Part shown: piece after piece, positions 28,009-44,736 of the stretch | Position numbering within the stretch: position 1 is the first letter of the stretch | How the letters are laid out: every line of letters starts with the position of its first letter | Assembly: GCF_001428365.1 (NCBI RefSeq) | Contig: NZ_LMSH01000002.1 | Coordinates: forward strand, 558,132-622,131 | Direction: 5' to 3' | Length of the DNA stretch: 64,000 nucleotides | From: Arthrobacter sp. Soil763 | GTDB lineage: Bacteria; Actinomycetota; Actinomycetes; Actinomycetales; Micrococcaceae | The notes under the pieces: generated by a model | Databases searched by the model: none | What the model saw: only the letters and a program-made list of their open reading frames with translations | What the model was told of the DNA's origin: nothing | Position numbers and translations under genes: made by a program

Positions 28009-28770
28009 ATGACTGACCTAGGGGTGGCCGTCGTCGTTGAGGACGATGCGGATGTGCGCAACCTGGTGGAGGGCGTACTGCGGCAGGCCGGTTTCGAGGT
28101 CCATTCCGCCGCCGAGGGCCGGGAGGGCGTTGACGTCGTCCGGCAACGGGACGCCAGCGTGGTCACGCTGGATGTTGGCCTGCCCGACATTGACGGCTTC
28201 GAAGTGCTGCGGCGGATCCGGCAGTTCAGTGACGCGTATATCGTCATGTTGACCGCGCGCACCGACGAGCTCGACACCCTGACCGCGCTGCACACCGGGG
28301 CGGATGACTTCCTTACCAAACCGTTCCGGCCGCGCGAACTCAGGGCCCGGGTGGCTGCGATGATGCGCCGGCCCCGGCGGCCGGGGCAGGTCGCCCCGGG
28401 CAGCGCCGCACAGCGGCCGCAGGCGGACGCCGCCCCGGACAACGTGCTGCGCCACAACGGACTGGCGCTCAACCCGGACATGCGCTCCGTGGCAGTCGAC
28501 GGCGAAGCGCTCGCCCTGACCCGCAGCGAGTTCGACCTCCTGCATGCGCTGCTCAAGGGCGCCGGAGCGGTCCGGTCCAAGACGGAACTGGTACGGGTGG
28601 TGCGCGGGGAGTACTACCGCGCCGATGCCTACATCAGCGAATCTGATGAACGTGCCGTTGAGGTGCACATCGGCAACCTGCGGAGAAAGCTGCAGGAGGA
28701 CCCGGTGCAGCCGCGCTGGTTGCAGACCGTACGCGGCGTGGGCTACCGGCTGGCGCCGGAGCGGTCCTAG
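28009..28770 (+). CDS. OmpR-family response regulator
   Basis: A DNA-binding response regulator of 253 residues. The receiver domain (1-120) shows the acidic pair EDD (11-13), phosphoacceptor Asp55 in TLDVGLPDIDG, the switch Thr in MLTARTDE and Lys in LTKPFRPREL. After a Pro/Ala-rich linker the winged-helix domain (about 150-250) has LTRSEFDLLHALL, SDERAVEVHIGNLRRKL and VRGVGYRLAPE. ATG at 28009 with GAGGGTGG upstream; the longer frame from 27982 lacks support. It is divergent from the kinase gene and its stop codon overlaps that of the Hpt-like gene on the other strand. Confidence 0.95.
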   Translation: MTDLGVAVVVEDDADVRNLVEGVLRQAGFEVHSAAEGREGVDVVRQRDASVVTLDVGLPDIDGFEVLRRIRQFSDAYIVMLTARTDELDTLTALHTGADDFLTKPFRPRELRARVAAMMRRPRRPGQVAPGSAAQRPQADAAPDNVLRHNGLALNPDMRSVAVDGEALALTRSEFDLLHALLKGAGAVRSKTELVRVVRGEYYRADAYISESDERAVEVHIGNLRRKLQEDPVQPRWLQTVRGVGYRLAPERS

Positions 28771-29363
28771 CCGTCCCAGAGGATGTAGCTGAACTCCAGC
28801 TCCGCCACGGTTTCCCCGCCGCGGGCAGCGAGCTCGGGCAGCCGGGAGGCGGCGTGCTCCAGGTCCCCGCGCCGGATCGCCTCTTCAAGTTCGCCGGCGA
28901 GCCCGGCCAGCCGCAGGCCGCCGACCATCGACGAGGACGTTTTCAGGCTCAGCACGGCGTCGAGGGCTGCCCCCTGCTCGCGGCGGTCCAGGGCGTCGGC
29001 GAGGGAACCGTAGCGCTGCTCCCACATCTGCGAGAAGTCCCGGGCGAACCCCTTGGCCAGTGCGGCGCTGTTGACCTGCTCGCCCAGCTCCTGCAGGGCG
29101 GCCGGGTCCACCAGGGGCGCCGTTTCTGCCGCCGCCGGCGCGCCTGCGCCCGCGGGTGAAACGGTGGCGGATACGGGGCCGGCGTTCCCCTCGTCGGGGC
29201 AGGCAGCTAAAAGAGACATGCCACTACGGTACCCGCTCTTCGAACCCGTGCCGGAGGCGGCGGGGGATCCTGCGGAAACCCTGCGGCTATCCTTCCGCCC
29301 GATATCTGCCGGTCTTTTGGAGGCGGTTTCGGCGGCCGTTTTGGCGGTTTCCGGGGTTGTCAT
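28767..29363 (-). CDS. Hpt-domain-like protein lacking the phospho-accepting histidine
   Basis: A 198-residue protein whose C-terminal 115 residues look like a histidine phosphotransfer (Hpt) four-helix domain. In the canonical motif H-x-L-K-G-S-S the sequence here is LSLKTSSS (138-145), so the His is Leu138 and the Gly is Thr. It therefore probably cannot carry phosphate but could bind a receiver domain. The N-terminal 85 residues are Ala/Pro-rich and disordered. The ATG at 29363 shares a base with the stop of tadC (TAATG), which makes it the last gene of the first tad operon; an internal ATG at 29219 is an alternative. The stop overlaps that of the response regulator tail to tail. Confidence 0.65.
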   Translation of the reverse strand: MTTPETAKTAAETASKRPADIGRKDSRRVSAGSPAASGTGSKSGYRSGMSLLAACPDEGNAGPVSATVSPAGAGAPAAAETAPLVDPAALQELGEQVNSAALAKGFARDFSQMWEQRYGSLADALDRREQGAALDAVLSLKTSSSMVGGLRLAGLAGELEEAIRRGDLEHAASRLPELAARGGETVAELEFSYILWDG

Positions 29364-30244
29364 TACTGGCCGCTGAAGGTGTTGATGGCGTTGATGACCG
29401 CAGGTCCCAGGATCGCGATGAAGAGCACCGGGAAGATGAAGAAGAGCAGCGGAAACAGGATGGTGACGGGCAGCTTCATGGCCTTCTCCTCGGCGCGCTG
29501 CCGTCGCTTGACGCGCATCACCTTGGCCTGGATCCGCAGCACCCTGCTGATCGCAATGCCGTAGGTGTCGGCCTGCACGACGGCCTGGACGAAGCTGCGC
29601 AGCTCCGGGATGCTGGTTCGTTCGGCCAGGGCCTGGTAGGACTCGCGGCGGCTCCTTCCCACCTGCATGTCCTGCAGGGTGCGGACCAGTTCCTCGGCCA
29701 GCGGCCCCTTGCCGTTCTCGCCGGCCCGTGCCATGGCACCTTCAAAACCAAGGCCCGCTTCGACCGAAATCAGCATCTGGTCCAGGGTGTTGGCCAGTTC
29801 CAGCTGCATGAGCTTCTGCCGTTCCTGGCCCTTGCTGTAGAGCAGCAGGTCGGGGATGAAGTAGCCCAGCAGCATCACGAACAGGCCCACGAGCTTTAAC
29901 ACCGGTGCCGGGGTGCCGGCCAGCCACAGGCCAAGCAGCGCTCCGGCGAGTCCCAGCAACGGCTTGGCAGCCAGCACGCGGCCGAGGGGGAGCGAGGCCG
30001 GGCGGCCGGCCAGGGACAGCAGCCGGTCGAGTTTCCGCGCGTAGGCCGGGGGCGTCAGCGCGTAGCCGACCCGGTCCAGCAGGGCCGACTGCCGGGGTGC
30101 GGCGGCCTCGGCGGGACCGGTGCCCTGCCGCAGCATCTGCCGGATGGCCCGTTGGGATTTCCGGTCCACGGAGAGCAGGGACCAGGTGAAGTACGCCGTC
30201 GGCATGCAGATCAGGAGCAATGCGGAAAGGATCAGGGGACTCAT
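29363..30244 (-). CDS. tadC: Tad pilus inner-membrane platform protein TadC (locus 1)
   Basis: TadC is one of two GspF-like (T2SSF) membrane proteins that, with TadB, form the platform on which the TadA ATPase builds Flp pili. The 293-residue protein has an N-terminal membrane segment, a pair around residues 90-130, the cytoplasmic T2SSF domain (DQMLISVEAGLGFEGAMARAG, TLQDMQVGRSRRESYQALAER, FVQAVVQADTYGIAIS) and a C-terminal hydrophobic segment. ATG at 30244, 7 bases after tadB. It closely resembles the TadC of locus 2. Confidence 0.9.
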   Translation of the reverse strand: MSPLILSALLLICMPTAYFTWSLLSVDRKSQRAIRQMLRQGTGPAEAAAPRQSALLDRVGYALTPPAYARKLDRLLSLAGRPASLPLGRVLAAKPLLGLAGALLGLWLAGTPAPVLKLVGLFVMLLGYFIPDLLLYSKGQERQKLMQLELANTLDQMLISVEAGLGFEGAMARAGENGKGPLAEELVRTLQDMQVGRSRRESYQALAERTSIPELRSFVQAVVQADTYGIAISRVLRIQAKVMRVKRRQRAEEKAMKLPVTILFPLLFFIFPVLFIAILGPAVINAINTFSGQ

Positions 30245-30250
30245 GGCGCC

Positions 30251-31183
30251 TCAGAATTTCAAGTCGATGATCTTGCGCATCCACAGGCCGCCGATCGTCA
30301 TCAGGATCACGGAGGCCGCGATCATGCCCCAGCCCAGCGGGTTGGTGAACATGACGTTCATGTAGCCGGGATTGACCAGCATCAGCATGAGGACGATTCC
30401 CACCGGCATGGCCATCAGGATGTATGCGGAGAACTTCCCTTCGGCGGCGAGGGACCTGATGTGGCCTTTGATCTCGCTGCGCTCGCGGATGGTTTCGTTC
30501 ACCTGGTCCAGCACCTCGGCAAGGTTGCCGCCCACTTCGCGGTTGATCTGGATGGCCTGGGCAACCCAGACGAAGTCCTCGTTCCGCATCCGTTCGGCGG
30601 TGTCGTTGAGCGAGGCCAACAGGTCCCGGCCCAGTGAGGTTTCGGTAATGACGCGGCGCATCTCTTCGGCCGTGGGGCTCTGCGATTCGCTGCCGGCGGC
30701 GTCGATGGCCCGCAGGATGCTGTGCCCGGCGCGCAGGCCGCCGGAGAGCAGTTGCAGGGTGTCGCCGAGTTGCTCGTCGAACTTGGCGCGGCGCTTGCCC
30801 GCGAGGACCGTGAGGACGAGATGGCCGGCTACCGGCGCCAGCAGCACCAGCAGGAAGGCAAGCAGCGGGCCGCCGACGACGAAGCCGGCGAGGGCGCCGA
30901 CGAACGCGCCGACCAGCAGCAGCACGTAAAAGTCGCCCTGTCCTAGGCGCAGGCCGGCCTGTTCCAGCGCCTCCCGGTTGAAGAGCCGGATCTTCCGCCG
31001 TGCGAAGAAGGTGTCCGCCAGCTGGACCGCCGAGCCGGCGACGCGGCTGAGCGAGGAATCAGGCGAAACCTCGACGGGTCGGCGCCGGTCCAAGGGAACG
31101 CGTGCGGCTCCCGGTGCGAGGACGGCGACGGTGAACAGCAGCAGCGCAGCGGCCAGGAAGGCGGTGCCGAGGGTGAGGTTCAT
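30251..31183 (-). CDS. tadB: Tad pilus inner-membrane platform protein TadB (locus 1)
   Basis: Partner platform protein of TadC. The 310-residue protein has an N-terminal membrane helix, two in the middle (FYVLLLVGAFVGALAGFVVGG), and the T2SSF domain with LQLLSGGLRAGHSILRAIDAAG, FVWVAQAIQINREVGGNLAEVLDQV and RSEIKGHIRSLAAEGK, then C-terminal helices. The ATG at 31183 follows GAGGTT-type purines and is 7 bases from the end of tadA; earlier in-frame starts lie inside tadA. Confidence 0.9.
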   Translation of the reverse strand: MNLTLGTAFLAAALLLFTVAVLAPGAARVPLDRRRPVEVSPDSSLSRVAGSAVQLADTFFARRKIRLFNREALEQAGLRLGQGDFYVLLLVGAFVGALAGFVVGGPLLAFLLVLLAPVAGHLVLTVLAGKRRAKFDEQLGDTLQLLSGGLRAGHSILRAIDAAGSESQSPTAEEMRRVITETSLGRDLLASLNDTAERMRNEDFVWVAQAIQINREVGGNLAEVLDQVNETIRERSEIKGHIRSLAAEGKFSAYILMAMPVGIVLMLMLVNPGYMNVMFTNPLGWGMIAASVILMTIGGLWMRKIIDLKF

Positions 31184-31190
31184 GGCCGGA

Positions 31191-32714
31191 TCACGCCCTG
31201 CCGGCCGGGGCGGGCGCCGCGAAGACGTTCGGGGACACGTAAATGCCCATGTCCTCGAAGCGGTCGATGAACCGCGGCCGGATCCCCGTCGCCACGGGCC
31301 TGCCCAGGAAACGGCCATGGGCGTCGACACCGGCGGAATAATCGAACACGAAGGCGTCCTGGAGGGTGACGATGTCGCCTTCCATGCCCTGCACCTCGGT
31401 CACATGGGTGATGCGCCGCGTCCCGTCCCGCAGCCGGGAGATCTGGACGATCAGGTTCACGGCGGACGCGATCTGCTCACGGATCGCGCGCAGGGGCAAG
31501 TCCATCCCGGCCATCAGCACCAGCGTTTCAAGGCGGGCGACGGCGTCGCGCGGCGAGTTCGAGTGCACGGTCGACAGCGAACCGTCATGGCCGGTGTTCA
31601 TGGCCTGGAGCATGTCCAGCGACTCCCCCCCGCGGACCTCGCCGACGACGATCCGGTCCGGGCGCATGCGCAGCGAGTTCCGCAGCAGGTCCCGGATCGT
31701 GACCTCGCCCTTGCCTTCCGTGTTCGGCGGCCGGCTTTCGAGCCGCACCACATGTTCCTGCTGGATCTGCAGCTCGACCGCGTCCTCGATGGTGACGATG
31801 CGTTCATCGTGCGGCAGGAAGGACGACAGCACGTTCAGCAGTGTGGTCTTGCCGGTGCCAGTGCCGCCGGAGACGATGATGTTCAGCTTGGCCCGGACGC
31901 AGGCGTTGAGCAGCTCGGCCATCTCCGGGGTCAGCGTGCCGAAGTCGATCAGGTTGCGGACGGTCAGGGGGACCTTGCTGAACTTGCGGATGGTCAGCGA
32001 GGAGCCGCCGACGGCGAGCGGCGGGATGACCGCGTTAACGCGCGAGCCGTCCTCGAGCCGGGCGTCGACCAGCGGTGAGGACTCATCGATCCGGCGGCCC
32101 ACCTTGGACACGATCCGCTCGATCACCTTGCGCAGGTGGTCCTCGGAGCTGAACCGCGAGTCGGTCAGGGTGAGCTGGCCCTTTCGTTCTACGTAGATCT
32201 GGTCCATCCGGTTGACCATGATCTCGGTGACCGCCGGATCGTCCAGCAGCCGCTGGAGCGGACCGTAACCGAGCACGTCGTCGGCGACATCGCGGACCAG
32301 CCGGGTGCGCTCCTCGGTGGACAGCGGTACCTGTTCGGCGTCAATGATGCGGATCAGTTCATCGCGTGCCGTGGCGCGCAGTTCTTCTTCCTTGACCGCG
32401 GAGTCGCTGAACCGCGTGCCCATCCGTTCGAACAGGGCGGTGGCGGCGCGTTCCTTCAGCGCCGCGAAGGCGTCGACCGGGTGCTGGGCCCTGGCACGGG
32501 CATCGTGGGTATCGGGGAACGACGGCGCGGCCGCGGCCAGGCGCGAAGGCTCGGGGCGCTGCCGGTTGGCAGTTGCTGCGTCCGCGGCTGAGGCGGGCGC
32601 GGGTGCCTGGGCGGCCGCCGTCGTCACCGTTGTGGCCCGCGACGGCGGCGCCGGCCGAGTTGGCTGCGTCGGCGCGCCGGTCTCCGCGGCGGAAAGGCGC
32701 TCGGAGAGCTTCAC
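31191..32714 (-). CDS. tadA: Tad pilus assembly ATPase TadA/CpaF (locus 1)
   Basis: Secretion ATPase that powers Flp pilus assembly. The 507-residue protein has a Pro/Ala-rich N-terminus (1-80), an N-terminal domain, and a RecA-like core with Walker [11 protein letters not shown] (about 282-291), Asp box TIEDAVEL, Walker [12 protein letters not shown] and the His box TGHDGSLSTVHSNSPRDA. ATG at 32714 abuts the cpaE stop. The core is strongly similar to TadA of locus 2 (MVNR..QIYVER.GQL.LTD), while the N-terminus differs. Confidence 0.95.
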   Translation of the reverse strand: MKLSERLSAAETGAPTQPTRPAPPSRATTVTTAAAQAPAPASAADAATANRQRPEPSRLAAAAPSFPDTHDARARAQHPVDAFAALKERAATALFERMGTRFSDSAVKEEELRATARDELIRIIDAEQVPLSTEERTRLVRDVADDVLGYGPLQRLLDDPAVTEIMVNRMDQIYVERKGQLTLTDSRFSSEDHLRKVIERIVSKVGRRIDESSPLVDARLEDGSRVNAVIPPLAVGGSSLTIRKFSKVPLTVRNLIDFGTLTPEMAELLNACVRAKLNIIVSGGTGTGKTTLLNVLSSFLPHDERIVTIEDAVELQIQQEHVVRLESRPPNTEGKGEVTIRDLLRNSLRMRPDRIVVGEVRGGESLDMLQAMNTGHDGSLSTVHSNSPRDAVARLETLVLMAGMDLPLRAIREQIASAVNLIVQISRLRDGTRRITHVTEVQGMEGDIVTLQDAFVFDYSAGVDAHGRFLGRPVATGIRPRFIDRFEDMGIYVSPNVFAAPAPAGRA

Positions 32715-33908
32715 TTACACCACCACCCGTCGGTGCAGCTTCTTCTGGGCACTGGCCCGCCAGGCCGGGTCAAAGCGCGTCACGAGCTGCCGCAGCCCCT
32801 TCACCGCGGGGTCGCGGCGGCCGTCCTGCAGGACCGGGATGCCCCGGTTCGTGGAGTACGCCACAGCCTTGGACCGCGGAATGCTCACGTCCACCGGTGC
32901 GCCGATCGTTGCCTCAACGTCCTGGACGCTGAGCCCGGACTTGGCGTCGGCCATGTTCAGCACCACGTGGCGGGTCTCGGGGAGCAGGTCCAGCCGGCGC
33001 AGGATCTCTAGTCCGGAGCGCAGTCCCCGGATGCTGGGCACGTCCATGCCACTGACCCAGACGACGTCGGTGCACTGCTCCATCGCGGCCAGGCCCACCT
33101 CGGGGAGGCCGGGGGCGGTGTCGACGACGACGTACTGGAACTGCTCGGCGAGCTGTTCCAGCAGCCGGCTGACCTGCTGGGGAGTGATGTCGTCGGCTTC
33201 CACGGGGGTCCGGGGAGCGCAGAGGGCGTAGATGCTGCTCGGGTGCACGGTAAGGAAGGCCTTGAGTACCAGCGAGTCCTGGCTGGCCGAGGCCGAGACG
33301 GCGTCAGTGACGGTGTGCTCCGGGTTCAGGTACAGCCCGGATGCGACGTCGCCGAACTGCAGATCCAGGTCCACGATCACGACGCCCATCGGGGCGACCT
33401 GGCCCAGGCCGATGGCTATGTTGGTGGCGATGGTGGTCTTGCCCACCCCGCCCTTGGGCGAGAAGACGCCGATGACCAGGCCCTTGGGGCTCTTGTCCGG
33501 CTGCTGGACGGCCGTGGCCCGGGTGCGGCTGGCGTAAGACTGACACGCACGTTCCAGCAGCACCCTGATCTGGGCCGGGTCCGAGCCGGGGCTGAGGATG
33601 TCCCGGATGCCGGCGCGCATCGCCAGGAGCACAAAGTCCGGGTCGGGCTCCCCGACCAGGATCACGCTGAGCTCGGGCAGCTGGACGTCGAAGACCGTGG
33701 CGAGCCGCAGGGCGTCCTCCACGGGGATGTCCGGGCCCAGGATCAGGACCTCGGGCCGCTCCTGGTTGAGGTTGGCGAAAAGTTCGCCGGGATCGGCGGG
33801 ATTGATGTACGCGAAGGTCTGGACGCCGCCCGGCAGGCCGCCTGCAACCGCCTGCCGGAGCCGCGCGTCGAAATCGGTGTTGGGGGTGATGAGGACAAAG
33901 CGGCTCAC
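32715..33908 (-). CDS. cpaE: Tad pilus protein CpaE/TadZ, MinD-like ATPase (locus 1)
   Basis: CpaE/TadZ proteins are MinD/ParA-type ATPases that place the Tad machine in the cell. The 397-residue protein has an N-terminal receiver-like domain (residues 1-130: SRFVLITPNTDFDARL, VLILGPDIPVEDALRLA) and a C-terminal ATPase with deviant Walker A FSPKGGVGKTT (about 150-160) and VIVDLDLQFGD. The GTG at 33908 overlaps the cpaB stop (GTGA). The receiver-like domain lacks an obvious phosphorylatable Asp. Confidence 0.9.
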   Translation of the reverse strand: MSRFVLITPNTDFDARLRQAVAGGLPGGVQTFAYINPADPGELFANLNQERPEVLILGPDIPVEDALRLATVFDVQLPELSVILVGEPDPDFVLLAMRAGIRDILSPGSDPAQIRVLLERACQSYASRTRATAVQQPDKSPKGLVIGVFSPKGGVGKTTIATNIAIGLGQVAPMGVVIVDLDLQFGDVASGLYLNPEHTVTDAVSASASQDSLVLKAFLTVHPSSIYALCAPRTPVEADDITPQQVSRLLEQLAEQFQYVVVDTAPGLPEVGLAAMEQCTDVVWVSGMDVPSIRGLRSGLEILRRLDLLPETRHVVLNMADAKSGLSVQDVEATIGAPVDVSIPRSKAVAYSTNRGIPVLQDGRRDPAVKGLRQLVTRFDPAWRASAQKKLHRRVVV

Positions 33909-34666
33909 TTGTAGACCTCCGGTTTGGTGATGATGCCGGGCCGGCCGCTGTCCTTTGCGTCGAGGGGCTCGCGGCTGAGCCACAACTTCTCGAACTCGGC
34001 GGCGTAGACGATCTTGGCGGCGTCGACGTCGTTGACGGCGACAGTGACGATCAGCATCCCGGTGGGGAGCGAGGTGTCCTCCGTCGGCTCCGTGGACCCG
34101 TCCGACGCTGCTTTGGGTGTTGCCACGGGTGCGCGCTGGACCGCTGTCACGAGGGCCTTGTGAACCGTCAACTGCGTGGTCGACTTCTCCGGTTTGGCCT
34201 CCAGCCCGCCTTCCTTGAGGTTGATGAAGACCCCCACGTGGTCGCCCGGTGCCAGACGACCGCCGACGACGCGCTGGGGTTCGAGCTGGAAGGACACCTC
34301 CTGCAATCCCTTGGGGACCTGCACGGATCCACTGGCCTTAAGTTCCTTCGGCTCCACCAGCCGCTCGGCCACGAGCTGCTCGCCGGGCACCAGGTCGACG
34401 GCGGTGACCTTGCCGGCCTCCTTGTCCAGGGTCTTCAGCGCTGAAGCGGAGACGGCCTTGTCGGGGAGTTCCTGGCTGGTGACAAAAGCCTTAAGCGTTT
34501 CCACCGGGGTGCCGGCCGGGACAGCCCGCTGCACCACGAGGACAGTGACTGGTTGGAGGTTCTGAACGGCACGGGTGTCGGCGCCCTGGGCGTAGCTGAC
34601 AACGAGGATGGCACCGAGGATGGCCAGCACGACGGCGGCCAGCCCTGCCAATAAGCGTGACTTCAA
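33905..34666 (-). CDS. cpaB: Tad pilus assembly protein CpaB/RcpC (locus 1)
   Basis: CpaB/RcpC proteins carry SAF domains and support Flp pilus assembly outside the membrane. The 253-residue protein starts with one membrane anchor (LLAGLAAVVLAILGAILVVSYA), then a SAF-like region (VLVVQRAVPAGTPVETLKAF and VDLVPGEQLVAERLV) and the motif GGRLAPGDHVGVFINLKEG. ATG at 34666; stop overlaps cpaE. Secretin RcpA is missing, as expected without an outer membrane. Confidence 0.88.
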   Translation of the reverse strand: MKSRLLAGLAAVVLAILGAILVVSYAQGADTRAVQNLQPVTVLVVQRAVPAGTPVETLKAFVTSQELPDKAVSASALKTLDKEAGKVTAVDLVPGEQLVAERLVEPKELKASGSVQVPKGLQEVSFQLEPQRVVGGRLAPGDHVGVFINLKEGGLEAKPEKSTTQLTVHKALVTAVQRAPVATPKAASDGSTEPTEDTSLPTGMLIVTVAVNDVDAAKIVYAAEFEKLWLSREPLDAKDSGRPGIITKPEVYK

Positions 34667-34708
34667 AAACTGCTCCTGAACCGGTTGGGGGACTGCGGGT
34701 ACAAAGTG

Positions 34709-35746
34709 TTATTGGGTGAGTCGAACGATCGTGGCGCCGTTGGCGTCGACGGGGCCGAGGGTGAATCCGTCGGCCAGGGAGACGTACTTGATGAAACTCC
34801 CGATGATGCCGCGGCAATTGCCGTCGCACGCCACGGAGGACGGGACGGTGGGCGCGGTGTTCCGGAAGGCATCGGGCAGGGTGCTGTTGCCGCTGAACTT
34901 CCAGCCCGCCACCTTGAAGGCGGCGAAGGACGTCAGGCCATAAACGGCGCCGTTGCCGGTGCCCGTCACGCGGTCAAAGACCGGGAGCAGCACGACGACC
35001 TCTTTGCCGGCCGTGAGGTCGGAGGCCCAGCGGTTCAGCGTGGCCGCGCAGTTGGCGGGGGAGCTGTTGCCGGGGTCGCTGCCGCCCTCGCTCACCGCAA
35101 GGTCGATCAGGCCACCGCATACGCCGGGGTCGCTGACCAGCCAGCCGAAACCGCCCTCGACGGGCGCGCCGGAGGGCCCGTAGTTGCAGTCCGGGTTGGC
35201 GTTGCTGCCGTGGTTCTGCAGCAACTGGAGGCTGCCGTCGACGTGTCCGCGAACCTGGCAGACGGAGAAGGCGACGGGAAACGCCGTTGGCCCCTTCACC
35301 GGACTGCCCCACGTGACGGCTGAGGTGGCCAGCACATCTGTGGAGTTGATGCCCATCGCCCGGGCGAGGAACAGCGAAACCTGGTTCGGCGTCTTGCCCG
35401 GTTCCTGGGCTCCGGCGGTAACCGTGACGGTGCGGTTAGCCTTGTCAAGCAGCAGCGCGGCGACGTTGCTCGCGCCGTCGCCGGCGTTGCCGTTGGCGAG
35501 CCCTCGCGCGAGGGTGGAGGCGGCCGAGCAGTCAGCGTCGTTGATGTCTTTGGCACACTTTTGCGCGACGGCCAGGGCGGCCGCGTCCGAGCCGTTGCGC
35601 AGCTGGGTGCGCTCCGCGTAGAGCATGCCGACGTCGACGGCGAGGGCAGCAAACCCGAGCAGGGCGACCATGAGGATGGCTACGACGACGGCGATGCCGC
35701 CGCGCTCGCGGTCACCGCCGGCAACAGGACTGCCTAGCCGCCGCAC
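34709..35746 (-). CDS. TadG-like pilus-associated protein (locus 1)
   Basis: A 345-residue protein with a pseudopilin-like N-terminus: short basic leader, RERG then GIAVVVAILMVALLGFAALAVDVGMLYAERTQLRNGSDAAALAVAQ, the pattern of the TadE/TadG-like (Tad domain) family. The long exported part has at least eight Cys (CAKDINDADC, CQVRGH, NPDCNY, DPGVCGG, ANCAATL, VACDGNCRGI), suggesting disulfides. The GTG at 35746 has AAAGGAG upstream and overlaps tadE by 13 bases. Length and the C-terminal CRGIIGSFIK match the locus 2 partner. Confidence 0.8.
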   Translation of the reverse strand: MRRLGSPVAGGDRERGGIAVVVAILMVALLGFAALAVDVGMLYAERTQLRNGSDAAALAVAQKCAKDINDADCSAASTLARGLANGNAGDGASNVAALLLDKANRTVTVTAGAQEPGKTPNQVSLFLARAMGINSTDVLATSAVTWGSPVKGPTAFPVAFSVCQVRGHVDGSLQLLQNHGSNANPDCNYGPSGAPVEGGFGWLVSDPGVCGGLIDLAVSEGGSDPGNSSPANCAATLNRWASDLTAGKEVVVLLPVFDRVTGTGNGAVYGLTSFAAFKVAGWKFSGNSTLPDAFRNTAPTVPSSVACDGNCRGIIGSFIKYVSLADGFTLGPVDANGATIVRLTQ

Positions 35747-36695: not shown

Positions 36696-36727
36696 GGTCT
36701 AGGGGCGGCCCGAAGGCGGGCCGCGGG

Positions 36728-37609
36728 TTATTTATTGGTGAAAACCTCCGCGATGCTCATCACGGTCGGGCCCAGCACCACGATGAACAGGGTCGGCAGG
36801 ATCGTGAAGATCAGCGGAAACAGCATCTTGACCGGCATCTTCATGGCGTGTTCTTCGGCCCGCTGGCGGCGTTTCGTGCGCATATCCTTCGCCTGGGCGT
36901 TCAACACGTTCGCGATCGCGATTCCGTATGCATCGGCCTGGACCACGGCGCGGACGAAGGACCGCAGATCCGGCACGTCCACGCGCTGGGACATCGCCAG
37001 GTACGCTTCCTTGCGGGAACGGCCCACCTGGATGTCCTGCAATGTCCGGATCAGTTCCTCGGCCAGCGGGCCGTTTCCGTTCTGACCGGCCCGGGCCATG
37101 GCGGTTTCGAAGCCCAGCCCGGCCTGGACCGAGATGAGCATCTGGTCCAGCGCGTCCGGCAGGTCAAGCTTGATCCGCTGGCGACGCTTTTGGGCGTGAT
37201 TCCGAAGGAGAATGTCCGGGACAAAGTAGGCGAGCGCGGTCACGGCGACCATGAGGAGGACGTTGCCGGTGGTGGGCTTTCCGGCCACGACGAAGATGCC
37301 GAGCATTGCCCCGGCAAGGGCCAGCAGGGGCTTGACCATGATGACGCGGCCGAGCGGCCACTCCTTGGGCCGACCCGCGCCGGCGAGCTGCTTGTCCAGC
37401 CAAGCGGTGTATCCCTTGGGCGTTATCTTCCGGGTCAGGGCCGCGAACTGGCCCGAAGCGGACAGGGCCGAACCGGCGTCCTGCGGGCCGCGGCCGAGGT
37501 TCGCTTGCACGTTGCGCAATCCGGCCCGGTCCCCGGTGAACGCGAGCCAGGTCATGATCGACAGCGGGGCGACAACTGCCAGGATTGCTGCATAAGCAAT
37601 GGTTTGCAC
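36728..37609 (-). CDS. tadC: Tad pilus inner-membrane platform protein TadC (locus 2)
   Basis: Second TadC copy, 293 residues, the same length as the locus 1 protein. Shared features: ALDQMLISVQAGLGFETAMARAGQNGNGPLAEELIRTLQDIQVGRSRKEAY and FVRAVVQADAYGIAIANVL, with C-terminal helix LIFTILPTLFIVVLGPTVM (motifs split across residues about 155-290). The GTG at 37609 has AAGGAG upstream, 13 bases after the tadB stop. Last gene of locus 2. Confidence 0.9.
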   Translation of the reverse strand: MQTIAYAAILAVVAPLSIMTWLAFTGDRAGLRNVQANLGRGPQDAGSALSASGQFAALTRKITPKGYTAWLDKQLAGAGRPKEWPLGRVIMVKPLLALAGAMLGIFVVAGKPTTGNVLLMVAVTALAYFVPDILLRNHAQKRRQRIKLDLPDALDQMLISVQAGLGFETAMARAGQNGNGPLAEELIRTLQDIQVGRSRKEAYLAMSQRVDVPDLRSFVRAVVQADAYGIAIANVLNAQAKDMRTKRRQRAEEHAMKMPVKMLFPLIFTILPTLFIVVLGPTVMSIAEVFTNK

Positions 37610-37622
37610 GGTGTCTCCTTCC

Positions 37623-38576
37623 TCAGAACTTCGGCTTGATGAGTCGGCTGAGCCAGAAGCCACCGGCTGCCAGCAGGAGCAGGGCTGCAGCGATCATCAG
37701 GTAGCCCGGGAGAGTCGTTAGGAAAACTTTCGAGTACAGCGGGTTGAAAAGAGTCAGCACCGTGAACATCAGGACAGGCAGCGCCATGAGGACGATGGCG
37801 GACATCCGTCCCTCCGCGCTCAGGGCCCTGACCTGGCCCCGGACCTGATTGCGGTCCCGGATGGTCTCGCCCACGTGGTCGAGGACCTGGGCGAGGTCGC
37901 CGCCCACTTCCCGGTGGATCTCAATGGCCCGCGTGATGGAGGCGAAGTCCTCATTGTCGGTCCGCCGCGAGACGTCAGCGAGAGCTTCGCCGAGGTCCCT
38001 GCCGATCCGCGTTTCGTTGACAACCCGGTTGAGCTCCTCCTTCATGGGGGCTTCCGACTCCTCGGCTGCGGCATCTACCGACCGCAGGAGGCTGTGGCCC
38101 GCCCGGAGGCCACCGGCCAACATCTGCAGCGAGTCGGGCACCTGTTCGTCGAACTTCTTCCGCCGCCTGGCGGCCAGAAAGTTGAGCAACAAAACCAGGC
38201 CTACCGGGGTCACAACCGCCAGCAGGACCGCCAAAGCAGGCCCGGCGAGGAGGAACCCCAGCACCGCCGCCACGAAAGTGAACGCACCGGCCATCAGGAG
38301 GTAGTCCCCGGGCTGCTTCTTCAGTCCGGCGCTGTCGAGCTTCTCGCGGCTCAGGAAACCCGGGCCCCGGCTCCGCAGCCCTTGGTTCAGGGTGCTGACG
38401 GCCTGGTCCGTGAGCCGGGTAAGGCCGGAGGAAGGGACATGGACGGCGTCGGGGCGGCGCCGCGACAACGGCACCGACTCTGACTTGAGTACGACGCCGA
38501 CCAGGATGGCCAGGGACGCATAAGCCAGGACCAGCCCGGCGACGAAGGCGAGCGGCGACTGCTCCAGCATGGTCAC
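37623..38576 (-). CDS. tadB: Tad pilus inner-membrane platform protein TadB (locus 2)
   Basis: Second TadB copy, 317 residues. N-terminal membrane segment, LLMAGAFTFVAAVLGFLLAG, and T2SSF motifs LQMLAGGLRAGHSLLRSVDAA and EIHREVGGDLAQVLDHVGETI; C-terminal helices end in SRLIKPKF. The GTG at 38576 overlaps the tadA stop (GTGA); an ATG two codons later is possible. Similar along its length to TadB of locus 1. Confidence 0.9.
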   Translation of the reverse strand: MTMLEQSPLAFVAGLVLAYASLAILVGVVLKSESVPLSRRRPDAVHVPSSGLTRLTDQAVSTLNQGLRSRGPGFLSREKLDSAGLKKQPGDYLLMAGAFTFVAAVLGFLLAGPALAVLLAVVTPVGLVLLLNFLAARRRKKFDEQVPDSLQMLAGGLRAGHSLLRSVDAAAEESEAPMKEELNRVVNETRIGRDLGEALADVSRRTDNEDFASITRAIEIHREVGGDLAQVLDHVGETIRDRNQVRGQVRALSAEGRMSAIVLMALPVLMFTVLTLFNPLYSKVFLTTLPGYLMIAAALLLLAAGGFWLSRLIKPKF

Positions 38577-40042
38577 CGCCCCCTGACGGGGCCGGCACCG
38601 AACACGGCCGGTGAAATCGCAATGCCGAGTTCGGCGAAGCGGTCCGTGAAGCGGGGCCGAACGCCGGTGGGGATGGGCTTGCCGAGGAAGCGGCCCTGGG
38701 CATCGACGCCGGCTGAGTAGTCGAACACGAACGCGTCCTGGAGGGTGACGATGTCCCCTTCCATGCCCTGGACCTCCGTGATGTGGGTGACCCGGCGCGA
38801 TCCGTCCCGCAGGCGGGAGATGTGCACGATCAGGTTCACGGCCGAGGCCACTTGTTCCCGGATAGCGCGCAGGGGCAAGTCCATGCCGGCCATCAGCACC
38901 AACGTTTCCAGCCGGGCAATGGCGTCCCGGGGGGAGTTCGCGTGGACGGTGGAGATGGAGCCGTCATGTCCGGTGTTCATGGCCTGCAGCATGTCCAGGC
39001 ATTCACCGCCGCGGACTTCGCCGACGACGATGCGGTCCGGCCGCATGCGCAGCGAGTTGCGCACGAGGTCACGGATGGAGATTTCGCCCTTCCCCTCGAT
39101 GTTCGGCGGCCGGCTCTCCAGCCTGACCACGTGATCCTGCTGCAGCTGCAGTTCCACAGCGTCCTCGATGGTCACGATCCGGTCAGCGCCCGGAATGAAG
39201 GAGGACAGGACGTTCAGCAGTGTGGTCTTGCCGGTGCCCGTACCGCCCGAAACGATGATGTTCAGCCGGGCCTGCACGCAGGCCTGCAACAGCTCCGCCA
39301 TCTCTGGCGAGAGGCTGCCCATCGAAATGAGGTCGTGGACGGTCAGCGGATCGCGGCCGAACTTCCGGATGGTCAAGGCGGCGCCGTTGACGGCCAGCGG
39401 CGGGATGATGGCGTTGACGCGCGAACCGTCCGACAGCCGGGCATCCACCAAGGGGGAGGACTCGTCAATGCGGCGCCCGACGTTGGAAACGATCCGCTCG
39501 ATGACCCGCCGCAGAGCGTCGTCCGAGGTGAACTTCGCGTCCGTGAGCTGGAGCTGCCCCTGGCGTTCCACGTAGATCTGGTTGAAGCGGTTGACCATGA
39601 CCTCGGTGACTGTGGGGTCGTCCAGGAAGCGCTGGATCGGGCCGTGGCCCAGCACGTCGTCGATAATCTCCCGGATCAGCCGCTGCCGCTCGACCGAAGT
39701 GAGCGGAATCTGCTCCTCATCGACGACCGCTTTAAGCTCGTCCTTGACCGTCTGGTGGAGCTCCGTTTCGTCGACCGAGGAATCCGTGATGCGCGATCCG
39801 AGCCGTTCGAAGAGTGCCTGGCTGGCACGTTCCTTGAGGGCGGTCAGCGCCTCACTGGCGACAGCGTCGGTCTGCTGGAGGTCGTCGAACCCCGGCTGTG
39901 CCCCTGCGGCGGTCTTCGCCTCGAGGATCCGCCCCAGGGTGACCGGTGGGGCGTAAGAGGCGAAGACGTCCTCGCCGGGGGTCGTCCGGGGCGGAGCGGG
40001 GGTGCCTCCGCGCAGCTGCTGGAAACGATCGGTGAGGCTCAC
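38573..40042 (-). CDS. tadA: Tad pilus assembly ATPase TadA/CpaF (locus 2)
   Basis: Second TadA ATPase, 489 residues from the GTG at 40042, which overlaps the cpaE stop (GTGA). Motifs: Walker [30 protein letters not shown] and [18 protein letters not shown]. From about residue 60 on it runs in parallel with the locus 1 protein with many identities, while the N-terminal 60 residues differ. All catalytic residues are present, so both loci should be able to power assembly independently. Confidence 0.95.
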
Positions 40043-41241
40043 TGGACTACCGCCCTTCGGTGCAGTTGCTTGTGCGGTCGGGCGTCCCACTCCGGCTTGA
40101 AGCGTTCAACCAGTTGGCGCAGGCCTTTCAGCGCGGCGTCCCGGCTGCCGTCCTGGAGGACGGGCACCCCCTTGTTGGTCGAGAACGGCAACGTCCGGGA
40201 CCGCGGCAGAACCACGTCCACCGGGGCGCCCACGGTGGCCTCGACATCCTTCAGAGTCAGCCCCGCGCGCCGGTCCGCCATGTTCAGCACGATGTGCCGG
40301 TGGGCCGGGACCAGGTTGAGCTCGTCAAGAATTCCGAAGCCGGTCCGCATTCCCCTGATGCTGGGGACGTCCATCCCGCAGATCCAGACTGCATCGGTGG
40401 CCTGTTCCAGCGTGGCCAGGACATGCTCGCCCAGCCCGGGGGCGGTATCAACCACGACGTAGCGGAACTCCTTCCGCAACTGCTCCAGCAGGTGGGAGAC
40501 GTGAGCCGCGCTGATCCGGTCCATTTCCACCGGCGTGCGCGGGGCGCACAGGGCATAGATACCGGCCGGGTGGACGGTCAGGTAGGTTTTCAGCACCATG
40601 GAGTCCTGACTGGCCGCTCCCATGACAGCGTCGGTGATGGTGAATTCCGGTTCCAGCAGCAAACCGCTGGCCACGTCGCCGAACTGCAGGTCGAGATCGA
40701 CAATCACCACGCCCATCGGGGCGCTCTTGCCCAGCCCAACCGCGATGTTGGTGGCGACGGTGGTTTTGCCGACGCCGCCCTTGGGTGACATCACGGCAAT
40801 GACCCGCCCGGCGCCGTGGTCGGCGTGTTCGGTGGCCTGCGGGCCGAGTCCGCGGCGCCTGCCGGCGGCGGCAAGGCTGGCCCGCTCGAGCATGACCCGG
40901 ATAGTGTCCGGGTCTGCTCCGGGATCCAGCAGATCGCGCACGCCGGCGCGCATTGCCTGGACCACTGTCTCCGGGTCTGCCGTGACGGCCAGGACAACGC
41001 TGATCTCCGGGTACTGCAGGTCCACCACAGCGGCCAGCTTCAGCGAGTCGGCCACGGGGACGCCTGGCCCAAGGATCAGGACCTCGGGGGGCTCGCCGAC
41101 CATCTGACGCATGATGTCGGCCGGACCCTCCGGCAGGTAGTCGGCTTTGAAGGCGTGGAGTTCGCCGTGCATGCCGCTGACGGCGAGCCGTACCAGCCGC
41201 TCGAAGTCGGCGTTGGGCGTGATCAGAACGAAGCGGCTCAT
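40039..41241 (-). CDS. cpaE: Tad pilus protein CpaE/TadZ, MinD-like ATPase (locus 2)
   Basis: 400 residues with receiver-like N-terminal domain (SRFVLITPNADFERLVRLAVSG, EVLILGPGVPVADSLKLA) and MinD-like ATPase with MSPKGGVGKTT and VIVDLDLQFGD. The ATG at 41241 overlaps the cpaB stop (ATGA). Same domain arrangement as in locus 1, with a different linker (GRRRGLGPQATEHADHGAG). Confidence 0.9.
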   Translation of the reverse strand: MSRFVLITPNADFERLVRLAVSGMHGELHAFKADYLPEGPADIMRQMVGEPPEVLILGPGVPVADSLKLAAVVDLQYPEISVVLAVTADPETVVQAMRAGVRDLLDPGADPDTIRVMLERASLAAAGRRRGLGPQATEHADHGAGRVIAVMSPKGGVGKTTVATNIAVGLGKSAPMGVVIVDLDLQFGDVASGLLLEPEFTITDAVMGAASQDSMVLKTYLTVHPAGIYALCAPRTPVEMDRISAAHVSHLLEQLRKEFRYVVVDTAPGLGEHVLATLEQATDAVWICGMDVPSIRGMRTGFGILDELNLVPAHRHIVLNMADRRAGLTLKDVEATVGAPVDVVLPRSRTLPFSTNKGVPVLQDGSRDAALKGLRQLVERFKPEWDARPHKQLHRRAVVQ

Positions 41242-42023
41242 CGGAACAACCTCGACGGATCCACGTAGCTGGCACCGGTTTCGGCCGCGTTCTGCGGCTC
41301 CTTGGAGAGGTAGACCTTTCCAAACTCTGCGGCGAACACAATCCGCTCGGCGTCAGCTGCGTTGCGGGCGATGGTGATCAGATAGGTGCGGTCGCTCGGG
41401 ACCTTGGTGCTGGTGCTGCCCGTCGTCGACGCGGCCTGGGTGGTGCCGGCTGTCCCGGCGGCGGTCTGCGCGGCAGCGCCGTCACTGAACTGGGCCGCGG
41501 TGACCAGGACCTTGTGGAAGCTCAGCTGCGTCTTGCTCACCTTCTGCCCGTTCGCTCCGGCGGAGACTGATTCCAGGGAGAGGAAGACGCCGACAGTGTC
41601 ACCGGCGTTCACCTTCCCGCCAGCCACCCGTTCGATCGGGAGTTTCAGGGTGATTTCCTGCAGTCCAGCAGGGACCTGGACCCTGGAGGGGCCGAGGAAC
41701 GACTGTTCGTCCACCATGCGGCTGGAGAGCAGCTGCTCGCCGGGTACCAGGGTGACGGCTGCGACCTTTGAGCCAAGCGAAGCGAGGTCCGTGACTGTGT
41801 TGCTGGCCAGTGCGGCCTTCGGTACTTCTTTCCTGGTAACGGAGGAGGCAATCTTATCCGCCGTTGCGCCGGCCGGGATGGCCTGCTGCACGACATAAAC
41901 TGTTTCCGTTTCCGTCCCGGCCATTGCACGTTTATCAGCATTCTGTACATAAGAGACCAATAAGACAGTTCCAATAATAGCCACAATAAGTGCGGCGATG
42001 CCCCCCAGCAGGCGTGTTTTCAT
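41238..42023 (-). CDS. cpaB: Tad pilus assembly protein CpaB/RcpC (locus 2)
   Basis: A 261-residue CpaB with an N-terminal anchor (LLGGIAALIVAIIGTVLLVSYV), SAF-like VYVVQQAIPAGATADKI, LVPGEQLLSSRMVD and GGKVNAGDTVGVFLSLE. A Thr/Ala/Ser-rich insert lies near residues 190-215. The first 50 codons use unusually AT-rich codons (for example ata, tta, aat) compared with neighbours, a local composition shift. ATG at 42023. Confidence 0.88.
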   Translation of the reverse strand: MKTRLLGGIAALIVAIIGTVLLVSYVQNADKRAMAGTETETVYVVQQAIPAGATADKIASSVTRKEVPKAALASNTVTDLASLGSKVAAVTLVPGEQLLSSRMVDEQSFLGPSRVQVPAGLQEITLKLPIERVAGGKVNAGDTVGVFLSLESVSAGANGQKVSKTQLSFHKVLVTAAQFSDGAAAQTAAGTAGTTQAASTTGSTSTKVPSDRTYLITIARNAADAERIVFAAEFGKVYLSKEPQNAAETGASYVDPSRLFR

Positions 42024-42044
42024 TTCTACCCCTTAGAAATATTG

Positions 42045-43061
42045 CTATTTGATGAGCCGGATATTCACTGTTCCGAGGTCCGGGCCGGTACCCGGGGTTC
42101 CCCCTACCTCGCCGATGGATTCGAAGCGGATGAATTGGCCGATGATGCCCCGGCAGCTTCCGGTGCAGGCATTGGCGGGAGTGCCGACCCAGGGCATCGT
42201 TGCCCGGAAGACCTCCGGCGTCCCTCCGCCGGAGAAAGCCCAGCCGATGATCTTGAAGGTCGCGTAGCCGCGGATGTGGAACCACCCGCCGTGGCCGGTG
42301 CCGCCGGCGTCGTCATAGACCGGGACCGTCGCCTCCACGGTGCCGCCGGCGAGGATTGTGTCCCGCCAGGCGGTGACAATCGCGGTGCAGCTGCCCGGGA
42401 AGCTCGCGCCGGTGTCGGTACTGGCGATGTCCCCGGAGTCGGTGGTGGCCGTGCAGGCCCCGCCATCATCCAGCCAGCCGAAGCCGCCAGGAATGACGTG
42501 CCCAGAGGTGGACGTGCAGGTTCCGGTGCCGGGCTTGTACTTGATCAGCTGGATATCGCCGCTCTCCTCCGCGCCGGAGAGGTCGTACTGGCAATCAGAG
42601 ATGGCCAAGGGAAACGCCGTCGCTCCGCCGAGCGGTTCGATCACGGCAGTGGCGCGGGCCCCGACCGTCACCGGGGGAGCGTTCAGCGCACTGGCGAACA
42701 GTTGGGTGAGGAAGCCGGCACCGCTGGTTCCGTTGCGGGTGGACGTGGCTACGGTGACCTGGCCCGGCACGGCAAGGTCCACGGAGTCCACCGTCGTGGC
42801 GCCATCGTTGGAGTTTCCGGCGGTCATGTCCTGGGCCCAGGTAAGAGCCTGTGCCGTGCAATCGCCCGGCGCACGGTGGCACTGCTGTGCGGCAGCCATG
42901 GCCCCTGCATCCGCGGCGTTCTGTAGTTGGGCCCGTTCGGCATAGATCTGGCCGACGTCCACCGCCATGGCGCCGGCCCCGATGAGGACCAGCATCATGA
43001 CCGCGACCAGGACGCCGGCGGCGCCGCGCTCCTTCTCGCGTTTGTCGATCAGCCGCCGCAT
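42045..43061 (-). CDS. TadG-like pilus-associated protein (locus 2)
   Basis: 338 residues from the ATG at 43061 (GTAGGAG upstream). N-terminus KERG/AAGVLVAVMMLVLIGAGAMAVDVGQIYAERAQLQNAADAGAMAAAQQC is the TadE/G-like pattern. Exported part is Cys-rich (CHRAPGDC, CQYDLSG, GTGTCTS, GGACTAT, GSCTAI, NACTGSCRGI). The C-terminal CRGIIGQFIRFESI matches locus 1. Overlaps tadE by 13 bases, exactly as in locus 1. Confidence 0.8.
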   Translation of the reverse strand: MRRLIDKREKERGAAGVLVAVMMLVLIGAGAMAVDVGQIYAERAQLQNAADAGAMAAAQQCHRAPGDCTAQALTWAQDMTAGNSNDGATTVDSVDLAVPGQVTVATSTRNGTSGAGFLTQLFASALNAPPVTVGARATAVIEPLGGATAFPLAISDCQYDLSGAEESGDIQLIKYKPGTGTCTSTSGHVIPGGFGWLDDGGACTATTDSGDIASTDTGASFPGSCTAIVTAWRDTILAGGTVEATVPVYDDAGGTGHGGWFHIRGYATFKIIGWAFSGGGTPEVFRATMPWVGTPANACTGSCRGIIGQFIRFESIGEVGGTPGTGPDLGTVNIRLIK

Positions 43062-43447
43062 CGCATGGCTCCTACGCCGGTCATGGTCAGCGTGCCGCCC
43101 AACAGTCCGGTAAGGGTGTTGGCGGTATAGGTGACGGTGACATTCGCGGTCAGCCCCTCGGCGCAGGCGCCCGGAGCAAAGGCGAAGGTGAAGGAGCCGG
43201 GATTCAGGCCGGGGGCCCCGGCGATGGCGGCGGTCCGGGCGAGAGCCTGGTCGTTCTCGATGGCCATGGTGCGGGCCGCCTCGCGGGCGGCCTGAGTGAC
43301 CGAGATCTGCAGGTTGTAGGCGTGAGAAAACTCGACGATGCCGCCCACCAAGGCCAGCAGGACAGGTGCGACGAGGGCGAACTCGACGGCGGCGGCCCCC
43401 CGCTCCGACCGGCCGGTGGCCGGTGGCCGTGCAGTGCTGCGCTTCAT
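43049..43447 (-). CDS. tadE: TadE-like minor pseudopilin (locus 2)
   Basis: 132 residues from the ATG at 43447 (GGGGGAAG upstream). SERG/AAAVEFALVAPVLLALVGGIVEFSHAYN shows the pseudopilin cleavage site and Glu +5. Two Cys (PGACAEG, MRCGG) in the exported part, at places similar to TadE of locus 1. A longer frame from 43492 is less likely. Confidence 0.85.
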   Translation of the reverse strand: MKRSTARPPATGRSERGAAAVEFALVAPVLLALVGGIVEFSHAYNLQISVTQAAREAARTMAIENDQALARTAAIAGAPGLNPGSFTFAFAPGACAEGLTANVTVTYTANTLTGLLGGTLTMTGVGAMRCGG

Positions 43448-43589
43448 TGCTTCCCCCCAGGGATCGATGCAGCTGGTGTTGAGAAAAATCAATCAAGGAA
43501 CACGTGTGCCGCGTCCGCGCTTGGCGGACGCGGCACATCGGGTGGTGCAGAGACCCCGGCCGGGAGACCTCCGGCCGCCAGGCGGTTCG

Positions 43590-43799
43590 CTACGGAGCGC
43601 GCCAGGTGTTGACCTCGTTTGCCAGAGCCGTGAACCAGTTGCTGAGCGACTGCCCGAACAGAGTGGCCCCGCCGATGACCAGGAACGCGATGAAGGCGAC
43701 GAGCAGCGAGTATTCCGTTGCGGTGGCGCCCTTTTCGGATTCGAACTTGTCCTTGACGCCGGCGACGAACGCGAGCATTGAAACCATGAGACCAGTCAT
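43590..43799 (-). CDS. flp: Flp-type major pilin (locus 2)
   Basis: 69-residue pilin precursor from ATG 43799 (AAAGGA upstream). Leader TGLMVSMLAFVAGVKDKFESEKG, cleavage before ATATEYSLLVAFIAFLVIGG (Glu +5), and a short tail (LSNWFTALANEVNTWRAP) without Cys. It is a more classic Flp length than the locus 1 pilin. The 142-base gap to tadE contains no gene; the 270-base gap upstream (43800-44070) has no clear promoter that I can defend. Confidence 0.92.
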   Translation of the reverse strand: MTGLMVSMLAFVAGVKDKFESEKGATATEYSLLVAFIAFLVIGGATLFGQSLSNWFTALANEVNTWRAP

Positions 43800-44070
43800 T
43801 GAATTAATCCTTTTCCAGAGTTTTGAATGAACTACGGAATTCCAGCAAATCCCCTTATTGCTAACCCCCTGGACTTCCGCTGGGACAACAGTTGCACGGC
43901 CATTTGAGGCGCGGCAACGCATTGCACTACTCGTCTTTTGGGGGCCGAAAGGGGCGAATCACCTAGGGCTAATTTCGGCGGTACTCAGTCGGGGCCCCGG
44001 AGCGGACGCGGACTACTTGGTTTGATGCGGCTGCTTACTAATGTGAGCCGAGATGAGGCGGTGGCTCCTG

Positions 44071-44736
44071 TTACGGGAGTAGCAGAATGACAGCCAGGCC
44101 GGCGGCGAGCATGGAGGGGCCGTAGGCCACCTCTTGGGGCTTGTTTCCGCGGTTCTTCAGCATCAGGATCACGGAGGTCAGGCCACCCGCCACGAAGGCG
44201 AAAGCTCCGCCGTAGAAGAGCTGCGTCCAGCCTAGGTAGCCTAAGTACAGCCCAAGTGGTGCGGCCAGCTTCACGTCACCCATTCCGAGGCCGTTCCGGC
44301 TGGTTAAAGCCAAAAAAAGATAGAAAAAGAACAAGATTCCGGACCCGGCGGCTCCGCGAAGCACGTCTCCGGCCGACCCCTGGAACCAGGCGGCAACACT
44401 GAGGAGGGCCAGGCCGGCAACCAGCAGCGGGCCCACCAGTCGGTTCGGCAGCAGGTGGTGCGCGATGTCGATCCGCGCCAGTTGCACCGCGAAGACCCCG
44501 AGCAGGACATAGGCGGGCAGTTCCGGGGCGCTGCCGAACCGCCAAGCGAGCAGCATGGAAACCGCCGCCGTGGTTGCCGCCATTACCGCCAGCTGGCGGG
44601 CGGACGTGCTGCCGGCGAGGCGGGGGAGGACGCGCCGGATCACGGGCTCTGCGATGAGCGCAAGGCATGCACCGGCGAGGGCGGCCCCGGCGATCAGGAG
44701 CAGCGGTGCGGGGCCTGGGAAGGTGGGAAGGAGCAC
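44071..44736 (-). CDS. tadV: Prepilin peptidase, TadV/CpaA type (A24)
   Basis: A membrane aspartic protease that cleaves prepilins; here presumably Flp, TadE and TadG of both loci, since no second copy is visible. 221 residues from the GTG at 44736 (GGAGG upstream). Active-site motifs: Asp in RIDIAHHLLPN and GMGDVKLAAP. About six to seven hydrophobic segments, no N-terminal Cys domain. The alternative ATG at 44805 would overlap the rplM promoter and has no ribosome-binding site. A run of seven Ts in the coding strand (about 44310-44320) is a possible slippage tract. Confidence 0.88.
   Translation of the reverse strand: MLLPTFPGPAPLLLIAGAALAGACLALIAEPVIRRVLPRLAGSTSARQLAVMAATTAAVSMLLAWRFGSAPELPAYVLLGVFAVQLARIDIAHHLLPNRLVGPLLVAGLALLSVAAWFQGSAGDVLRGAAGSGILFFFYLFLALTSRNGLGMGDVKLAAPLGLYLGYLGWTQLFYGGAFAFVAGGLTSVILMLKNRGNKPQEVAYGPSMLAAGLAVILLLP

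Follow-up and report, generated by a model that had tools for sequence, protein, structure and literature searches.

The 64,000-nucleotide stretch analysed here (the window; Arthrobacter sp. Soil763, assembly GCF_001428365.1, contig NZ_LMSH01000002.1, positions 558,132 to 622,131) carries two complete eight-gene tad (Flp pilus) loci in tandem on the minus strand, behind a single tadV and between rplM and truA. We consider, with a probability of roughly three in four, that the locus next to tadV (locus 2, sitting in what we call slot 2) is a pilus cassette of about 7 kb that is exchanged by recombination between conserved flanks, with tadV and the other locus (locus 1) mostly staying in place. 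Slot 2 looks not simply like a duplicate of locus 1, and it looks to have been exchanged repeatedly.

The comparison is based on a genus search of 101 genomes, one per species; the tad loci of three of the genomes compared lie at zero distance from records named Arthrobacter ipis, A. nitrophenolicus and Arthrobacter sp. OY3WO11, and the genus is taken as Arthrobacter on this basis. TadA matches were found in all 101 genomes and a locus-1-type TadA (at least 812 bits, among the matches listed) in 74 of them; surroundings were fetched for 67 of the 74 (left out were G042, G044, G050, G053, G064, G090 and G095), showing the tandem in 61, locus 1 only in two and a split arrangement in four. The 61 tandem genomes together with two named records (L012 and L013) make up the paired set of 63, after exclusion of L019, L031 and L015 (zero branch length to L171, L140 and L173, respectively) and of L183 (a second piece of G009). 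The fetched stretches are at most 20 kb long, and within the 63 only that of the window reaches truA, so that elsewhere the rplM side alone is covered.

Trees were built from concatenated CpaE, TadA, TadB and TadC; out of 79 named loci, 29 entered the first tree and 16 the second, from which we named the slot types a to d. Locus 1 is one lineage across Arthrobacter, together with loci of several related genera, while slot 2 holds four deep Tad clades in the 63 paired genomes (a in 34, c in 14, b in 11 and d in 4), the window having type a. Loci of other genera, Sinomonas included, adjoin type a, and one falls inside type c. In the second tree type d is sister to locus 1, and in the IQ-TREE tree locus 1 branches together with types c and d from a single unresolved node, separate from a and b; in that tree locus 1 (16 rows) lies on one side of a fully supported branch and slot 2 (14 rows) needs four changes. 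A single slot-2 clade is rejected by the approximately unbiased (AU) test (p = 0.0004, log-likelihood difference 391.5). The patristic distances of the two loci are practically uncorrelated (r = 0.04 over 63 genomes, 1953 pairs). When mapped onto the tree of slot 2 itself, slot type needs 3 changes; on the locus-1 tree it needs 23, against a mean of 26.2 in 300 shuffles, and since 18 of the 300 shuffles were as low, slot types are nearly random on the locus-1 tree.

The same picture is obtained with markers outside the block. Mapped onto an rpoB tree of 40 selected genomes, slot type takes 19 changes; shuffling gave a mean of 18.7, with 221 of 300 shuffles as low. The rpoB distances correlate with those of locus 1 at 0.44 (0 of 500 permutations), of tadV at 0.28 (0 of 500) and of slot 2 at -0.04 (403 of 500). 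DNA distances of rplM-rpsI, taken over 60 of the 63 genomes, gave correlations of 0.51 with tadV, 0.37 with locus 1 and 0.02 with slot 2. Among the 20 pairs closest in rpoB, in which some genomes recur, slot type differs in 12, approximately the random expectation. In near relatives locus 1 can be near-identical while the slot-2 cassettes are about 60% identical in protein; for the pair L170/L171, for example, the distances are 0.015 for rpoB, 0.025 for locus 1 and 0.399 for slot 2.

In the window, locus 1 occupies 29363-36450 and locus 2 occupies 36728-43799; truA (plus strand) ends at 26135, rplM lies at 45042-45485 (plus strand), and the interval between them also carries a histidine kinase, a response regulator and an HPt-like gene beyond locus 1. 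Both loci read flp-tadE-tadG-cpaB-cpaE-tadA-tadB-tadC in the direction of transcription with all frames open, as the first-pass annotation of the sequence had described, and the identical 13-base tadE/tadG overlap that it had pointed out was confirmed (locus 1 GTGCGGCGGCTAG, locus 2 ATGCGGCGGCTAG). Identity between the loci (BLASTP) is 75% for TadA, 62% for CpaE, 53% for TadC, 49% for TadB, 48% for TadE, 42% for CpaB, 37% for TadG and 32% for Flp. Pfam matches cover Flp (PF04964), TadE (PF07811), TadG (PF13400), RcpC/CpaB (PF16976) and a CpaE-type ATPase with ParA-like domains at both loci, plus TadV; the TadA/CpaF ATPases score 235 and 232 bits against PF00437, and four PF00482 matches above the cut-off in the block correspond to the platform proteins TadB and TadC. 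Genome-wide family searches likewise placed TadA, TadB and TadC at both loci. The RcpA secretin belongs to the diderm form of the Tad locus; monoderms are not expected to have it. In all 63 genomes, both loci contain a frame of Flp size with the G/xxxxEY site, the motif itself having been the search query. The genes and regions of the block, all on the minus strand, are as follows:

44071..44805, minus: tadV, A24 prepilin peptidase beside rplM (PF01478, E 8.6e-12)
43790..43940, within 43731-44010, minus: conserved region upstream of the slot-2 flp, control/leader side (boxes conserved in 61 genomes; no Rfam family)
43590..43799, minus: flp2, major prepilin, cleavage motif G/ATATEY (PF04964, E 2e-10)
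43049..43447, minus: tadE2 (PF07811, E 1.7e-16)
42045..43061, minus: tadG2, 13-base overlap with tadE2 (PF13400)
41238..42023, minus: cpaB2/rcpC (PF16976, E 1.9e-9)
40039..41241, minus: cpaE2/tadZ (ParA-like domains; 62% to cpaE1)
38573..40090, minus: tadA2/cpaF ATPase, start codon uncertain (PF00437, genome position C2:596944-597780)
37623..38576, minus: tadB2 (PF00482)
36728..37663, minus: tadC2, start codon uncertain (PF00482)
36580..43730, minus: putative exchangeable slot-2 cassette, approximate, from mature flp2 to downstream of tadC2 (from relatives' identity profiles, boundaries transferred by position)
36211..36450, minus: flp1, major prepilin, cleavage motif G/ATAVEY (PF04964, E 4.7e-16)
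35734..36108, minus: tadE1 (PF07811, E 2.7e-17)
34709..35746, minus: tadG1, 13-base overlap with tadE1 (PF13400)
33905..34666, minus: cpaB1/rcpC (PF16976)
32715..33908, minus: cpaE1/tadZ (ParA-like domains)
31191..32714, minus: tadA1/cpaF ATPase (PF00437)
30251..31183, minus: tadB1 (PF00482)
29363..30244, minus: tadC1 (PF00482)

The edges of the cassette were followed in DNA profiles of seven selected pairs that are close at locus 1 and differ in slot type. In these pairs, rpsI/rplM-tadV matches at 82-91% identity, tadE2-tadC2 either has no match or reaches 65-73%, and most of locus 1 through the HPt-like gene is again at 81-91%; in the pair L144/L160 identity is 72% or unmatched at flp1/tadE1 and then 82% again. 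This loss of match across tadE-tadC is sharper evidence of an edge than the profile around the flp cleavage codon, where the 20 closest cross-type pairs show a mean identity of 50-81% from -450 to -240, 84-93% across the bins between -210 and -60, 74% at -30, 62% in the first 30 bases past the codon and 32-43% from 120 bases on. On the locus-1 side, identity climbs upstream of flp1. In G018 and G097, where tadV and locus 1 are present and locus 2 is not, the stretch missing in comparison with L092 and L140 runs from the flp2 region to the region upstream of flp1. The region upstream of flp2 is conserved in 61 genomes across all types, including a TCCAGC/GCTGGA inverted pair; a search of 26000-46500 against Rfam for an RNA element upstream of flp returned a sole match, far below the gathering score, at 46031. 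The number of flp copies per locus ranges from 1 to 3.

Several points weigh against exchange of slot 2 beside a stable locus 1. Identity in the 20 same-type control pairs also declines past the cleavage codon, starting at 84% and reaching 48-69%. Ordinary Flp variability therefore accounts for part of the cross-type drop, and the contrast at this point is partial. Variation is also seen in flp1 and around it, strongly in the 3' part of flp1, although locus 1 around it is conserved. As the region upstream of flp2 is conserved in every slot type, retention of a resident control region is not proven by it, and function as well as descent may maintain this conservation. The AU test used a quick LG+G4 tree, with a slot-2 group that had been named after a first tree. 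The rpoB set (40 of the 63 genomes) was chosen by hand and includes known discordant pairs, the profile pairs were chosen too, neither of them being a random sample, and the rpoB correlations with locus 1 and tadV are moderate. Some pairs that are close in rpoB diverge at locus 1, namely L099/L104 (0.211, with rpoB 0.015), L104/L160 (0.211), L139/L147 (0.197) and L147/L170 (0.206), which means that locus 1 is not immune to exchange. With one genome per species, no swap between strains was observed. Finally, a pattern search for the TadE cleavage motif found none in 14 of 63 slot-2 TadE proteins.

The two loci were initially described as sharing one prepilin peptidase, and a search for a second one in the genome was suggested. 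Such a gene exists on contig C4 (C4:104144), not near locus 1; next to it is a frame of 395 amino acids with no Pfam match. For the two loci themselves, one TadV is still the best reading, and it probably serves both, to judge by genome counts and motifs, which fit this reading and are not proof of it. Among the 101 genomes, A24 genes number two in 92, one in 4 and three in 5. Two of the genomes with one A24 gene, G032 and G091, have neither of the large loci and just two weak TadA matches (best E 3.8e-76 and 2.8e-77), and the sole A24 of G091 is a frame of 187 residues resembling the short second A24 of the window genome; the remaining two are G026, whose completeness is 68%, and G029, which shows 6% contamination and split frames. 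Both aspartate motifs of TadV are found by pattern in 60 of the 63 genomes, and two of the remainder have no tadV in the stretch. Regarding the substrates, the G-xxxx-EY pattern picked out 90 Flp frames in slot 2, of which 89 carry G/ATATEY, G/ATAVEY or G/ATMVEY, and 87 at locus 1, of which 83 carry G/ATAVEY or G/ATATEY.

It could be argued that the second A24 processes locus 1 and that TadV is not shared, as nearly all genomes of the genus have two A24 genes and the Flp1 and Flp2 cleavage motifs are so alike that any A24 might cut both. We consider this unlikely: the short A24 persists in G091 without both large loci, G018 and G097 retain tadV beside locus 1 alone, and the two other tad clusters of the genome (described below) have no tadV match in the fetched stretches, and the tad-1/tad-2 pilus of Micrococcus luteus is served by a single remote tadV according to the accessible part of that report (PMC4322843). 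The second A24 is better explained by the competence-type tad clusters. The four split genomes have two A24 genes each and no tadV match in the 20 kb around locus 1.

Less probable still is an ancestor with several tandem tad loci, of which different lineages retained different ones. All slot-2 types and locus 1 do fall inside one larger, mostly Micrococcaceae clade, and a tadE/tadG remnant follows tadC2 in G046; such a history, however, would call for lineages to have sorted their copies independently about 20 times, with a single one remaining in the same slot each time. Slot 2 is closer than locus 1 by more than 0.05 in 82 of the 1953 pairs (the reverse holds in 1569), and none of the typed loci has two slot-2 types at once, within the stretches of the locus itself.

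The model of the first-pass annotation, one old tandem duplication with both copies conserved and one TadV, is very improbable and is rejected for the slot as a whole, for the same gene order and 13-base overlap and the tandem in 61 of 67 fetched genomes (which do bear out that both copies were retained) are set against slot-2 polyphyly by the AU test, the r of 0.04 between the loci, the rpoB comparison and a gene order that recurs in Tad loci of other genera and is thus no mark of recent duplication.

The position of the block had also been read as an insertion into the ribosomal cluster. It turned out not to be particular to this genome. In a family sample, a strong TadA1 match (E 1e-130 or better) was found in 38 of 120 genomes and 18 of 32 genera, and in other genera 20 loci (18 genomes) were hand-chosen among the matches of this search, 14 of which have tad within one stretch of 15-20 kb with truA and/or rplM (both genes in 9, truA in 5 more). 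The position between these genes is therefore old, and a recent lineage-specific insertion is rejected. A plasmid origin was rejected too, as 34000-37000 has no near match among plasmids, in a search from which records close to the window were possibly excluded. In the genus, the four split genomes (G012, G022, G065 and G078) have locus 1 at another place together with the HPt-like gene, the regulator and the kinase, tadV and the slot-2 locus remaining at truA-rplM, and other fetched genomes (e.g., L110 and L184-L188) have just tadV and a slot-2 locus between rplM and truA.

To hypothesize on how exchange of the slot-2 cassette would work, the block may be regarded as two modules. One would be a mostly vertically inherited Flp pilus, consisting of locus 1 with the histidine kinase, the response regulator and the HPt-like gene, and the other the slot between tadV and locus 1, which would take one interchangeable tad cassette at a time (roughly 7 kb, from mature flp to tadC). 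A cassette from another species would enter by homologous recombination within the conserved flanks, and the resident tadV would then serve it. A cell would make two Flp fibres, one per locus and both cleaved by TadV, the conserved one presumably under two-component control and the other variable. More speculatively than any other step, phages or attachment surfaces might keep the surface parts of the second pilus (Flp, TadE and TadG) diverse. A wider proposal is a genus-wide mix-and-match pilus system, in which the peptidase, the upstream control region and the conserved pilus stay and the whole second machine is swapped among species, with its junction at the pilin leader. Natural transformation would be the probable route and phages or adhesion the selective pressure, which would make the system a protein-fibre analogue of O-antigen switching; in this full form we give it even odds.

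Parts of this picture are familiar. Several tad loci per genome are already known (PMC6748444, PMC3244431, as far as the accessible parts go), and so are a remote or shared TadV and tad transfer. In Micrococcus luteus, a related actinobacterium, the competence Flp pilus is encoded by two tad clusters (tad-1 and tad-2) with one remote prepilin peptidase gene, so that sharing of TadV is not new in itself (PMC4322843, PMC8467076). A further likeness in the accessible parts of these reports is that cpaB/cpaE of M. luteus are in an operon with a PAS histidine kinase, and locus 1 here adjoins a PAS histidine kinase. In contrast, the M. luteus clusters are described there as lying 1.2 Mb apart, jointly making one pilus and lacking tadV, cpaB and tadZ within the loci, while the window has two complete tandem clusters and the block includes tadV and cpaE. 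The two further tad clusters of the window genome look closer to the competence type. Vibrio vulnificus has several differently expressed tad loci, tad1 to tad3, in one genome, and the accessible part of that account, unlike the present case, makes no mention of a stable locus beside an exchangeable slot (PMC6748444). Our literature searches, judged mostly from titles and the beginnings of abstracts and with thin coverage of subscription literature, gave no recognisable account of this Arthrobacter arrangement or of repeated tad exchange at one slot beside a stable paralogue. Tad loci reportedly move horizontally between bacteria as a "widespread colonization island", a notion associated with Tomich (2007); here, the exchange recurs at one chromosomal slot with the flanks kept. 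O-antigen and capsule loci are variable surface cassettes between conserved flanks that are swapped by recombination, and here the cassette encodes a protein fibre machine instead of a polysaccharide, with a stable paralogue adjacent.

If exchange of slot 2 is true, one slot in a common soil genus switches its pilus type about as freely as capsules are switched elsewhere, and the neighbouring pilus far less. This would make it possible to test directly why bacteria maintain two Flp pili, whether very different pilins are tolerated by TadV, and whether exchange is driven by pilus-binding phages; in Caulobacter, Tad pili matter for phage adsorption, as stated in the accessible part of one report (PMC11067988). 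Furthermore, species identity in this genus could not predict pilus-dependent traits.

Beside locus 1 lie the following regulatory genes:

28767..29363, minus: HPt-like protein without the phospho-accepting His, accompanies locus 1 (PF01627, E 6.8e-6)
27982..28770, plus: OmpR-type response regulator, divergent (PF00072, PF00486)
26158..27849, minus: PAS/HisKA histidine kinase (PF00512, PF02518, PF08448)

In HPt phosphotransfer proteins the phospho-accepting His precedes an LKG motif. A His before SL(K/R) was found in 0 of 79 aligned rows of the HPt-like gene (three duplicate genomes included), and a phosphorelay through this gene was rejected because its phospho-accepting His is missing. The protein retains a conserved SL(K/R)xSxxMVG motif and can be described as a conserved pseudo-HPt.

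Outside the window, the genome has two further TadA-type ATPases, at C2:292838 and C2:892463. The first belongs to a cluster at C2:291405-299225 (L010 7406-15226) with a weak ParA-like gene, TadA and TadB/C; its neighbour is a DEAD-box helicase carrying an MrfA zinc domain. The second cluster, at C2:892463-911880 (L011 8041-11653, L191 about 10100-12300), is of the competence type and lies beside an epimerase (galE-like) gene; its tadA is interrupted by a roughly 17-kb element that carries recombinase genes of the resolvase family (PF00239 twice, PF07508), with tadB/tadC and, by our reading, the 3' end of tadA on the far side. ComEC is present in the genome, and as this tadA is split, DNA uptake may now be impaired.

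A few arrangements in the genus depart from those above. In G009 (L143/L183), about 7 kb of additional DNA separates tadC2 and locus 1. In G046 (L190, 12236-12709), the tadE and tadG remnants lie on the stretch from tadC2 to truA, and the slot-2 locus next to them is complete. In G010 (L189, 3715-16412), the truA-rplM interval has a single tad locus, which belongs to an outgroup-like clade, and after it the HPt-like gene, the regulator and the kinase; this is possibly a replacement of the whole module.

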